Shown here in pieces: positions 5,562-17,522 of a DNA stretch of 32,214 nucleotides. The position numbers were made by a program, and so were the translations under genes. Source of the DNA: a virus; the IMG/VR virus record IMGVR_UViG_3300028558_000078, positions 1 to 32,214 of that record. One strand, 5' to 3'. The notes beneath the pieces are model-generated. The model was given only the letters and a program-made list of their open reading frames with translations. It ran no database searches and was not told the origin of the DNA. Within the stretch, counting starts at the first letter, position 1; each line of letters begins with the position of its first letter.

Positions 5562-5596
5562 GCACAAAGCCCGGCCATCGTTGCCGGGCTTTGTGC
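5562..5596 (+). terminator. strong intrinsic terminator closing the late/lysis operon
   Basis: A perfect 14-bp stem (GCACAAAGCCCGGC at 5562-5575, complement at 5583-5596) encloses a 7-base loop CATCGTT. It begins 3 bases after the last lysis-block stop and is followed by TTTC. The next genes run towards it on the other strand, so with A and T tracts inside the stem it may stop transcription from both sides. Confidence 0.85.
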
Positions 5597-7954: not shown

Positions 7955-8557
7955 ATTGGGTACGCGCGGGTTTCTACACAGGATCAGAACCTCGATTTGC
8001 AACTCGACGCGCTCCGTGCTGCAGGAGTGCTTGAGGACAACCTACACGTCGATAAGGCGTCGGGCGCGAAACGGAACCGTCCCGGCCTCAGCCTCGCGCT
8101 CAAAGATGGCCGCGAGGGCGACACATTCGTTGTCTGGAAGCTCGACCGCCTCACGCGCTCGGTTGCCGATCTGTACGAGATCATGGCGTTCCTCGACGCT
8201 AAGAAGGTCGGGTTCCGCAGCCTCACAGAAAGCATTGATACGACGACGCCGGGAGGCCGTCTCATTCTCGGTGTGCTGGCCGTCATCGCCCAATTCGAGC
8301 GCGAACTTACGGCGCAGCGAACGGCGGCAGGGATCAAGGCCATGTTAGCGCGGGACCGCAAAAAGAAGTGGGGCCGAAAGCCACTTCTCACGCCAGCCAA
8401 GATCGAACGGGCGGGCAGGATGCTCAACAGCGGAAAGAGCGGGCCGGAAGTCGCCAAGCATTTTGGGGTTTCGACGCCGACGATTTATCAGCATTGGAAG
8501 TACGCAGGCGAAGGCAAGTTCATTCGCAAGCCCCTTCCAAAGAAGCCGAAAAAGTAA
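7955..8557 (+). CDS. serine recombinase (resolvase/invertase) with defective or non-standard start
   Basis: The frame codes GYARVSTQDQNLDLQLDAL, the N-terminus of the resolvase catalytic domain with nucleophile Ser in ARVST. KLDRLTRSVADLYEI, GGRLILGVLAVIAQFER and a C-terminal HTH (about 145-185, VAKHFGVSTPTIYQHW) follow. The product catalyses site-specific strand exchange. The frame is open from 7922 but holds no ATG, GTG or TTG before the catalytic block; the first usable codon, TTG 7997, would remove the active Ser. An ATT at 7955 is the best in-frame candidate. An ATG at 7914 lies in another frame and would need a -1 shift near the GGGAAAAAGG run. Either a base error, a rare ATT start or loss of function is possible. 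It could serve resolution, inversion or accessory mobility, since a tyrosine integrase is also present. Confidence 0.8.
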   Translation: MGYARVSTQDQNLDLQLDALRAAGVLEDNLHVDKASGAKRNRPGLSLALKDGREGDTFVVWKLDRLTRSVADLYEIMAFLDAKKVGFRSLTESIDTTTPGGRLILGVLAVIAQFERELTAQRTAAGIKAMLARDRKKKWGRKPLLTPAKIERAGRMLNSGKSGPEVAKHFGVSTPTIYQHWKYAGEGKFIRKPLPKKPKK

Positions 8558-9264: not shown

Positions 9265-9281
9265 ACAAAGGAGCGCAGGAA

Positions 9282-9545
9282 ATGCACGTCGGACGCATCC
9301 AAAACGCAACGCGAAATCTCGGCGCTCCGCGCGATTGGGACAAGCAAGCGAACGGGCCATGCGGCGGCTTGCCGATCCGCGACGAGCAGACCACAGCGGG
9401 GCACGGCATGACCTCGGCATGGTTCCCGACACCGGAGGAAATCGAGCGCATCAAGGAAGGCGCTCCGGTTTACATAACCGTTCTCGGCACGGTGCATCCG
9501 CCGGTAGCGATGGCTGTCGGGCCGCGCCCTGGATTTGAGGGTTGA
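9282..9545 (+). CDS. conserved phage protein, paralogue of the gene at 13597
   Basis: 87 aa. Shares the blocks ATR-x-LGAP-x-DWDK, CGLPI or CGGLPI, PTPEE or PTPDE and VLGT-x-HPPV with the 87-aa product of 13597-13860, over the full length and with no gaps. The family recurs in Alphaproteobacterial phages without known function. AAGGAGCGCAGGAA precedes the ATG. Having two copies in one array suggests cassette duplication. Confidence 0.7.
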   Translation: MHVGRIQNATRNLGAPRDWDKQANGPCGGLPIRDEQTTAGHGMTSAWFPTPEEIERIKEGAPVYITVLGTVHPPVAMAVGPRPGFEG

Positions 9546-10494: not shown

Positions 10495-10698
10495 ATGGCA
10501 TGGAAGCCGCAGCGACGGAAATGGGATTGGCGGAAGTATCTCACCGCCGAAGAACTCGCCCGTATTGACCGGATGGACGCGGCAGCGGCTAAGATCGAGC
10601 TTGCCCGGCGGGAGTTGGAAAAACAATTCGGCCGCGAGCGACAACTGATTGTGAACCGAGCGATCCAGCGCGCAAAGTACGCGGCGCTAAGTCAGTAA
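10495..10698 (+). CDS. small basic protein, intact paralogue of the interrupted gene at 16996
   Basis: 67 aa. The N-terminal 45 residues (MAWKPQRRKWDWRKYLT, EELARID, DAAAAKIELARR) are almost the same as in 16996-17215, and the C-termini also match (FGRERQ, RAKY-x-ALSQ). This copy carries eight extra residues (LIVNRAIQ) before RAKY. Basic and helical, so nucleic-acid binding is possible but unproven. It serves as the reference that shows where the other copy is broken. Confidence 0.7.
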   Translation: MAWKPQRRKWDWRKYLTAEELARIDRMDAAAAKIELARRELEKQFGRERQLIVNRAIQRAKYAALSQ

Positions 10699-13373: not shown

Positions 13374-13588
13374 CATCCTCTCAATTCCGCGCGGCTATAG
13401 ACCGCCTCGGGCTATCCCAGACTGGGACGGCAAGGCTTGTTGGTGCGGACGGACGGACGGCTAGGCGCTGGGCGCTAGGAGAGCGATCAGTGCCGGAGCC
13501 AGTCGCGATTATCCTGCGATTGATGCTCGCCGGGAAAGTCACGGTCGATGATGTTGTGCAAACAAATCCGAAGCAATTATCGGAATAG
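13370..13588 (+). CDS. small HTH DNA-binding regulator
   Basis: 72 aa. FRAAIDRLGLSQTGTARLVGADGRTARRWALGE is the helix-turn-helix of a widespread Alphaproteobacterial/phage family, followed by the typical VPEPVAIILRLMLAGKVTVDD. Start ATG 13370 overlaps the preceding stop. As the nearest DNA-binding protein to the palindromic promoter at 12927, it is a candidate to bind that operator (inference). Confidence 0.8.
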   Translation: MTSSQFRAAIDRLGLSQTGTARLVGADGRTARRWALGERSVPEPVAIILRLMLAGKVTVDDVVQTNPKQLSE

Positions 13589-13596
13589 GAGCGAAA

Positions 13597-13860
13597 ATGC
13601 TTGTGGCACGCATCCCCAACGCAACGCGAGTGCTCGGCGCCCCAAGCGATTGGGACAAGTCGAAGCAGGGCGCGTGCTGCGGCCTGCCGATACAGGACAT
13701 GGATACGAGCGCCGGTCCCGGCATGATGAGCCTATGGGAACCGACGCCGGATGAACTAGCGCGGCTGAATGCCGGGGCCAAGGTATCCCTCATCGTGCTC
13801 GGCACGGCTCACCCGCCTGTGTCCCTATCGGTCGGGATGCCTCCGAAGGAGGGCGAGTGA
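13597..13860 (+). CDS. conserved phage protein, paralogue of the gene at 9282
   Basis: 87 aa, the same length as its paralogue at 9282-9545. It shares NATRVLGAPSDWDK-type and VLGTAHPPV-type blocks, while the middle part differs (KSKQGACCGLPIQDMD). Uncharacterised phage family. ATAGGAGCG supplies stop and ribosome-binding site together. Confidence 0.7.
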   Translation: MLVARIPNATRVLGAPSDWDKSKQGACCGLPIQDMDTSAGPGMMSLWEPTPDELARLNAGAKVSLIVLGTAHPPVSLSVGMPPKEGE

Positions 13861-14456: not shown

Positions 14457-14726
14457 GTGGCACAGGTTCGAGAGATCGAGACGGCGGTAAATCTGCTCGC
14501 GATTGTCGAGACGGCGGATATTCCCGATGCCATGCCCAGCGGCACCTTTGAGACGCGCGAGTTTCAATGCCGCGACGGATGGAAAGTGAAAATCTTCTAT
14601 GACGACGGCGACCTCGATTATATCGAGAGCATCATCCGGCCTGACGGGACCGTTATCGACTTTTGGAGTTGGCCGGAAGGAACGACGGGGCGTTCCGATC
14701 TGATTTACTGGTCGGGAAAAAGATAG
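14457..14726 (+). CDS. hypothetical protein whose 3' end is duplicated downstream
   Basis: 89 aa from GTG 14457, with AAAGGAGG upstream. Beta-rich and acidic (GWKVKIFYDDGDLDYIES), no family recognised. Its last 92 bases and the next Shine-Dalgarno sequence form the first copy of an exact 96-bp direct repeat (14635-14730), repeated at 14859-14954. Confidence 0.6.
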   Translation: MAQVREIETAVNLLAIVETADIPDAMPSGTFETREFQCRDGWKVKIFYDDGDLDYIESIIRPDGTVIDFWSWPEGTTGRSDLIYWSGKR

Positions 14727-14730
14727 GAGG
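14635..14730 (+). repeat. 96-bp exact direct repeat, copy 1
   Basis: Identical base for base to 14859-14954 (offset 224). It covers the last 30 codons of the 14457 gene and ends exactly at AGGAGG of the next gene's ribosome-binding site. The sequences differ on either side. Confidence 0.95.
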
Positions 14731-14858: not shown

Positions 14859-14954
14859 TCCGGCCTGACGGGACCGTTATCGACTTTTGGAGTTGGCCGG
14901 AAGGAACGACGGGGCGTTCCGATCTGATTTACTGGTCGGGAAAAAGATAGGAGG
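14859..14954 (+). repeat. 96-bp exact direct repeat, copy 2 (gene remnant plus ribosome-binding site)
   Basis: Exact copy of 14635-14730. Its coding part is a 3' remnant of the 14457 gene without a start, ending at TAG 14947-14949. Its AGGAGG now serves the gene starting at 14961. Confidence 0.95.
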
Positions 14955-16245: not shown

Positions 16246-16976
16246 GTGGTGGAGCGGCGTATCATCTTCGGCGATTGCAGGAAGGACATGCTCGAGCATG
16301 GGCCTTTCGATATGCTTTTGGCGGACCCGCCGTATGGCGATACGTCGCTTGATTGGGACCGCCGCTGCAGCGGATGGCTCGATGCCGCCGCTCGGATGCT
16401 CAAACCGACTGGATCGCTATGGGTGTTCGGCTCGATGCGGTTCTTCCAGGAAGTTAGCTTTGATGGTTGGGCTCTCGCGCAGGACATCGTTTGGGAGAAG
16501 CACAACGGCTCTGCGTTCCATGCCGATCGCTTTAAGCGTGTGCATGAGCATGTCTGCCAATACTACCGGGGAAGCTGGGCCGATGTTTACAATGAGGTCC
16601 AGATGACGCCAGACGCCACCGCTCGCACCGTGCGCCGCAAGAAGCGCCGACGCACACGGGGCACATCGAGGCGGGAGCCTACGAGAGCCACGACGGCGGC
16701 CCACGCATTATGCGCTCGGTGATCTGGATGCCTTCGATGCACGGCAAGGCAATTCACCCGACTGAGAAGCCGTCTGACCTTCTCGAAATTCTGATCCGCA
16801 CGAGCTGCCCGCCCGGTGGCTTGATCGGCGATATGTTCGCTGGCTCCGGTGCTGCGGGCGAGGCGGCGATGCGCGCCGGCAGGAACTATGTCGGGTGTGA
16901 GATCGACGTTGAAATGGCAACCAAGGCAACGGCTCGGCTAGACTTTCTGCTGCCGCTGTCCGTAATTAACCCCTAG
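16246..16976 (+). pseudogene. beta-class DNA methyltransferase (N6-adenine/N4-cytosine) with a frameshift
   Basis: The first part (GTG 16246, AAGG before it) has IIFGDCRKDML and catalytic DPPYGD (motif IV). The last part, in another frame, has HPTEKP and the SAM-binding DMFAGSGAAGEAA (motif I). That order is the beta class. The frames join near 16647: RTVRRKKR continues as PTHTGHIEAGAYESHDGG if one base, most simply a C, is added to the CGCCGACG run. As written, the first frame ends at 16722 in a basic tail without motif I. It is a decayed gene or a homopolymer sequencing error. The whole protein would be about 243 aa, normal for the family. Confidence 0.8.
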
Positions 16977-16995: not shown

Positions 16996-17215
16996 ATGGC
17001 GTGGAAGCTGCAGCGAGCGAAGTGGGACTGGCGGAAGTATCTGACGCCCGAAGAACTTGCGCGCATAGAACGCTCGGACGCTGCCGCCGCAAAGATTGAA
17101 TTGGCACGTCGGCAGTACGAAAAGAAACGGCATATTGTACTTGCCAGTATAATATGCCGAAAAGAAATTCGGTCGCGAGCGCCAGCGCGCCAAGTACGAC
17201 GCGCTGAGTCAATAA
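16996..17215 (+). pseudogene. small basic protein gene interrupted by a hairpin insertion
   Basis: From ATG 16996 the product matches the intact 67-aa paralogue at 10495 up to RRQYEKK (17127). The frame then enters a 32-bp palindrome and never returns to the family sequence; uncorrected it runs to 17271 (91 aa). Removing exactly 40 bases (one repeat copy plus hairpin) restores EKKFGRERQRAKYDALSQ and TAA 17213-17215, a 59-aa protein. It is either broken or read through by ribosome bypassing. Confidence 0.75.
17118..17167 (+). mobile_element. 32-bp hairpin flanked by 10-bp direct repeat (miniature insertion or bypass-type element)
   Basis: CGAAAAGAAA occurs at 17118-17127 and 17158-17167, offset 40. 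Between them lies CGGCATATTGTAC (17128-17140), TTGCCA, GTATAATATGCCG (17147-17159): 13 paired positions with one G.T pair and a 6-base loop. The flanking repeat looks like a target-site duplication. No transposase is present. A chance origin is very unlikely because excision restores the paralogue's reading frame. Confidence 0.7.
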
Positions 17216-17225
17216 AGGAGCGCCC

Positions 17226-17336
17226 ATGCGCGTTGTGCTGGTGTGCGGCGGCCTTGCGCCCGTCGCCGTAGCGAGCGGAGACGTCTTGCGCAGAGGCGAT
17301 TTGCCGAACCTGTCGAACTGGCTCATAAGATATTGA
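17226..17336 (+). CDS. small hypothetical protein, last gene of the + strand array
   Basis: 36 aa from ATG 17226, with AAAGGAGCGCCC directly before it, overlapping the TAA of the interrupted gene. The N-terminus is hydrophobic (VVLVCGGLAPVAVA). It ends at TGA 17334-17336, just before the putative attP. No family recognised. Confidence 0.45.
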   Translation: MRVVLVCGGLAPVAVASGDVLRRGDLPNLSNWLIRY

Positions 17337-17434: not shown

Positions 17435-17492
17435 GGGAGGTAATAGCTGTAAGCCGTTGTAATGGCGAGACAATAGTACAACTACCTCTCCC
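17435..17492. other. nested inverted repeats between attP candidate and integrase
   Basis: GGGAGGTA (17435-17442) pairs with TACCTCTCCC (17483-17492) with a two-base bulge. Inside it GTTGTA (17456-17461) pairs with TACAAC (17477-17482). This could be integrase arm-binding DNA or a bidirectional terminator between the converging operons. Confidence 0.35.
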
Positions 17493-17500
17493 ACCAACGC

Positions 17501-17522
17501 ATAAAAACTGCTTTGTTTTTAT
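17501..17522. terminator. AT-rich hairpin at the integrase 3' end
   Basis: ATAAAAAC (17501-17508) and GTTTTTAT (17515-17522) are exact complements around TGCTTT and overlap the integrase stop codon. The stem has few GC pairs. Placed between convergent transcripts, it may end either of them. Confidence 0.35.

Follow-up and report, generated by a model that had tools for sequence, protein, structure and literature searches.

A single-copy hairpin, probably inserted with duplication of its target, in a small phage pseudogene

Genes and features around the insert

We analyzed a stretch of 32,214 nt (the window; positions 1 to 32,214 of IMG/VR record IMGVR_UViG_3300028558_000078). The same phage was also assembled as IMGVR_UViG_3300028800_000013 (59,043 bp), whose two contig ends repeat each other over about 127 bp, so that the complete circle measures 58,916 bp. 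Over 32 kb, the two assemblies differ by five substitutions and one 6-bp indel, none of which lies in the interrupted gene described below. Relatives of this gene or of the phage integrase occur in named phages, including Agrobacterium, Sinorhizobium, Paracoccus, and Rhodobacter phages, although the closest integrases among GenBank phages belong to an unclassified spring phage and a Pseudanabaena phage. The host is likely an alphaproteobacterium. The window also holds an exact 96-bp direct repeat (14635-14730 and 14859-14954, 224 bp apart), which is a recent duplication, and a second, diverged pair of small paralogous genes (9269-9376 and 13587-13691; 78% identical DNA). By its sequence, the ORF at 7997-8557 looks like a serine recombinase of the resolvase/invertase type, in addition to the tyrosine integrase of the phage.

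A small ORF in the window is interrupted by an imperfect palindrome with a direct repeat on either side (Table 1). The ORF reads MAWKLQRAKWDWRKYLTPEELARIERSDAAAAKIELARRQYEKK from its start, the palindrome comes directly after, and beyond the second copy of CGAAAAGAAA the original frame goes on as FGRERQRAKYDALSQ to its stop codon. Deletion of 40 nt yields ...YEKKFGRERQRAKYDALSQ, where the paralogue has ...LEKQFGRERQLIVNRAIQRAKYAALSQ; the flanks of the insert join into the sequence expected both from the paralogue and from an orthologue (L084). The original prediction had described an intact paralogue nearby, at 10495, and a match to it once 40 bases are removed. The frame restored in this way is right, but eight codons, including those for the NRAI motif, are missing as well.

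The members of this small-gene family have the common pattern KWDWRxFL...(I/V)xNRAIQRAKYAA. NRAI, the most conserved motif, was present in every other full-length member seen, and the closest relative (L084; 60% identity) retains the entire motif. Among the full-length members, only the interrupted copy is without the residues that match QLIVNRAI of the paralogue, and this 24-nt loss is in frame. A family member in L092 (about 1500-1700) is truncated after the KWDWRRFL region and is devoid of the C-terminal part. The differences between the interrupted gene and the paralogue were concentrated at third positions and were mostly synonymous (20 synonymous and 8 nonsynonymous codons before the insert; 5 and 1 after it), which suggests that the gene was long under selection in its original frame. 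Downstream of the insert, the frame has suffered no additional damage. Mostly synonymous change and an intact downstream frame fit a recent insertion; continued use of the frame fits them too, and these features are therefore not decisive alone.

The DNA methyltransferase gene immediately upstream is divided over two frames. Read through one missing base, it gave a one-piece alignment (45.7% identity) to Mox of Myxococcus phage Mx8, an intact homologue. The insert, the 24-nt loss, and the methyltransferase frameshift, i.e., three lesions inside about 0.6 kb, point to a stretch that is probably decaying. On the other side lies the integrase gene (int), which is read in the opposite direction. 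Related integrases (L046, L049, L055, and L066; 53 to 62% identical) have a tRNA-Tyr gene directly after them, and the matching stretch in this phage places the probable attP core. The hairpin thus appears to lie outside the attachment core, and in an integrated prophage it would lie near the other end. On the minus strand, Rfam gave a match to the twister-sister ribozyme at 17166-17264 that stayed below the threshold (21.6 bits vs 34; E, 0.045) and is probably due to chance.

TABLE 1 Positions of the insert and of the genes and sites around it
Feature	Position	Strand	Remark
DNA methyltransferase gene (N6/N4)	16246..16976	+	Broken by 1-nt loss near 16640-16650
Interrupted small ORF	16996..17215	+	Original frame resumes at 17168; TAA at 17213-17215
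Uncorrected reading frame, 91 aa	16996..17271	+	No stop inside or just past the hairpin
Direct repeat, left copy, CGAAAAGAAA	17118..17127	.	Target duplication of 8 to 10 bp
Imperfect palindrome, 32 bp	17128..17159	.	RNA hairpin on the plus strand
Direct repeat, right copy, CGAAAAGAAA	17158..17167	.	First 2 bases within the palindrome
Site of the 24-nt loss (8 codons; paralogue has QLIVNRAI)	17182..17183	+	In-frame loss
Probable attP core, ATGCGTTGGTGGGAGAGGTAGTTGT	17478..17502	-	Resembles the tRNA-Tyr 3' end
Tyrosine integrase gene (int), 359 aa	17519..18598	-	Ends 360 bp from the hairpin
Intact paralogue, 67 aa	10495..10698	+	Uninterrupted; has QLIVNRAI

Anatomy and occurrence of the hairpin

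The arms of the palindrome are CGGCATATTGTACT and AGTATAATATGCCG, i.e., terminal inverted repeats of 14 nt with 13 Watson-Crick pairs and one G·U pair. On the plus strand, the hairpin has 14 paired positions including the G·U and the loop TGCC. Counted with the loop TTGCCA, as in the original prediction, it has 13 paired positions. On the minus strand, an A·C mismatch takes the place of the G·U pair. The original prediction had placed a 32-bp hairpin between repeats at 17118 and 17158, and both these coordinates and the spacing of exactly 40 nt between the two repeat copies were confirmed. The repeat is exact over the predicted 10 bp, but the target duplication may be 8, 9, or 10 bp long, depending on the assignment of the outer CG to the palindrome. 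An exact repeat of 8 to 10 bp, together with the ancestral single copy suggested by the paralogue, is the pattern of a target-site duplication.

The plus-strand RNA fold of the hairpin had a free energy of -18.1 kcal/mol (z, -7.5 vs shuffles). Only one hairpin in the window is longer, and none of the shuffled versions of the window contained anything resembling it. Other palindromes of the window that adjoin short direct repeats were imperfect, GC-rich matches. A strong hairpin with a short T-tail at 5562-5596 is likely a terminator. The G+C content of the insert hairpin was 44% versus 60.5% for the window, and its longest common match with the rest of the 58.9-kb phage genome did not exceed 10 nt. 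This low G+C content and the absence of a longer match elsewhere in the genome suggest an external source of the DNA or its formation de novo.

Further copies with different flanking duplications, which had been proposed as a check, were found in neither the phage nor IMG/VR, GenBank phages, or PLSDB. With variation allowed at the wobble and loop positions, the only IMG/VR match was the other assembly of this phage. Elsewhere in the phage genome, there was no copy at ≤3 mismatches, leaving one copy in the complete genome, and the palindrome was not found in PLSDB plasmids. GenBank phages gave only partial matches at chance level (E, 0.4 to 5) in unrelated phages. With looser criteria, 84,980 bacterial and archaeal genomes yielded 23 stretches from unrelated organisms; the loop was common to none of them, and no flanking duplication was present in the contexts read. 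Among the candidates considered were two near-identical palindromes with similar arms, GCATATTGTACTC...GAGTACAATATGC, from two unrelated sites of a single Polyangiaceae metagenome-assembled genome (L028 and L036); these had other loops and no visible flanking duplications and were rejected. Searched singly in IMG/VR, the arms gave lone matches throughout, with no paired inverted ends and no insertion sequence (IS) with such ends. A role of the hairpin as a repressor operator or other repeated site was also rejected, the arms occurring across the 58.9-kb genome only as scattered matches with 2 to 3 mismatches. Literature searches with the arm sequence turned up nothing relevant.

Origin of the insert

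We conclude that the hairpin is real, occurs in a single copy, and most likely entered recently, duplicating its target, in a small phage gene that is now a pseudogene. Insertion by a transposase-type event is the best explanation and the probable one. A short palindromic DNA element would have entered a small accessory gene, duplicated 8 to 10 bp of an A-rich target (AAAAGAAA), and shifted the gene out of frame; its likeliest source would be a staggered cut of the transposase type. The inserted DNA may be no more than two inverted terminal ends, or it may be the remnant left by near-precise loss of a larger element, and the gene would now be a pseudogene, part of an accessory region near attP that is decaying. 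The palindrome, the repeats, the frame disruption, the missing motif, and the broken neighbor are directly visible, and from them we infer the transposase origin and the order of events. The palindrome has exact direct repeats on both flanks, and the paralogue carries the uninterrupted sequence. Because no further copies or parent ends were found, the insertion reading draws its evidence from the anatomy of the site. The transposase-less insertion put forward in the original prediction agrees with the palindrome, the AT-rich repeat of 8 to 10 bp, and the paralogue; for its mobility, no further copies and, in IMG/VR, no IS with these ends were found. Other points against insertion are that the empty site was seen in the paralogue and distant relatives only, with no orthologous empty site, and that 32 bp is far below the lengths of about 180 to 235 bp in examples of miniature inverted-repeat transposable elements (MITEs) (PMC10969869). 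The in-frame 24-nt loss counts against insertion into a dying gene, as it allows a functional, though altered, gene before the insertion. An IS1595-type origin, which an 8-bp AT-rich duplication would suggest, found no support: the IS1595 transposase domain PF12762 was absent from the five alphaproteobacterial plasmids scanned.

Replication slippage or template switching could have made both the palindrome and the repeated 10-mer without a transposase. Template switching can also place a direct repeat next to an inverted one, and a hairpin present in a single copy and without relatives suits such an origin. However, no template for either arm exists elsewhere in the phage genome. Alignments of the hairpin with the missing 24 nt or with the neighboring upstream sequence did not rise above shuffles (for the upstream neighbor, 45% of shuffles scored as well), and copying from either was rejected; we regard this origin as unlikely. 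That the hairpin is an artefact of metagenome assembly is very improbable. The second record at least is such an assembly, but the two assemblies agree fully in the palindrome and both repeats despite their differences elsewhere. The insert almost certainly is not a recombination site, i.e., the attP core of a tyrosine integrase or a site of a serine recombinase. Its 13-6-13 symmetry is like that of tyrosine recombinase core sites and the end of int is 360 bp away; against this, the complete genome has one copy of the palindrome, and the hairpin was rejected as attP, the tRNA-Tyr identity lying at 17478-17502 and not in the hairpin.

Possible effects on expression and known counterparts

The insert may have been recruited as a leftward terminator, the minus-strand hairpin followed by UUUCUUUU stopping int transcripts before they enter the opposing lytic genes. 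This reading is compatible with the insertion model, and we consider it a minor possibility. Lying 360 bp downstream of int, the minus-strand hairpin and TTTCTTTT together have the geometry of an intrinsic terminator; as in Rho-independent terminators, a GC-based stem is followed by a U-tract. The minus-strand fold (-15.2 kcal/mol) has a CGGC/GCCG base directly before TTTCTTTT, and the int strand contains no other structure of such strength in the 1.5 kb downstream of int. In related phages that carry the same type of integrase, however, no comparable terminator lies at that position, and the A·C mismatch lies within the minus-strand stem. The T-tract is antisense of the EKK codons and therefore predates the insertion, so that the resemblance may be a by-product.

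The original prediction had offered translational bypass as a second reading. Ribosomes would take off from GAA/AAG/AAA, pass over 40 nt with the hairpin, and land on the identical codons to make a 59-aa protein. The matching codons GAA AAG AAA do lie on both sides, 40 nt apart, the hairpin begins right after the putative take-off codon, the downstream frame and stop codon are intact with mostly synonymous change, and RKYL, about 30 residues before take-off, is loosely like KKYK of T4 gene 60 (PMC5009743). A recently arrived insertion, however, likewise leaves the downstream frame intact, and target duplication in any coding sequence produces matched codons automatically. RKYL also occurs in the uninterrupted paralogue and is thus no adaptation for bypass. 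The take-off site has no stop, as the original prediction had correctly noted in contrasting it with T4; the next codon is CGG, and the standard frame stays open for 91 codons to 17271. The product of a hop would still be without the conserved NRAI motif, the loss of which argues against a functional gene, and the neighboring methyltransferase is broken without any such device. The defining features of bypass are lacking, and this reading is very unlikely. Hardly any probability attaches to a mobile bypass-type phage element, in which the hairpin would insert with target duplication and be tolerated through duplicated codons and ribosome hopping. If true, a bypass element would be a rare case of natural ribosome hopping with a possible origin through insertion with duplicated codons. 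However, a transposition-like scar by itself makes matched codons and a hairpin, so these two features alone say little for bypass. The hairpin insertion is not evidence for ribosome bypassing.

Among known systems, T4 gene 60 is likewise a phage gene in which repeated codons surround a short, hairpin-containing noncoding gap. There, stalling occurs at a GGA codon that precedes a UAG stop, and a nascent-peptide signal and several stem-loops take part (PMC11194080, PMC5009743). Here, the gap is 40 nt rather than 50 nt, no stop follows take-off, the standard frame is open, RKYL is the only putative nascent-peptide signal, with no established 5' stem-loop, and the gene is otherwise damaged. The byp elements of Magnusiomyces capitatus mitochondria are also short blocks in genes at which the frame is lost, but a single mitochondrial genome has 81 of them, spread over 12 of its 15 protein genes (PMC5009743), compared with one insert in one accessory gene here. 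SPRITE, terminator-like small mobile elements known in pneumococcus (PMC10969869), add to the case for the terminator reading. Those of Streptococcus pneumoniae resemble the insert in being small hairpins with a terminator-like tail on one strand; the insert differs in being single copy and inside a coding sequence and in taking its T-tract from the target. Compared with MITEs and the remnants of near-precise IS excision, the insert is only 32 bp long and single copy, and a parent with these ends was not found, but it has in common with them an inverted repeat, a short direct duplication, no coding capacity, and the disruption of a gene.
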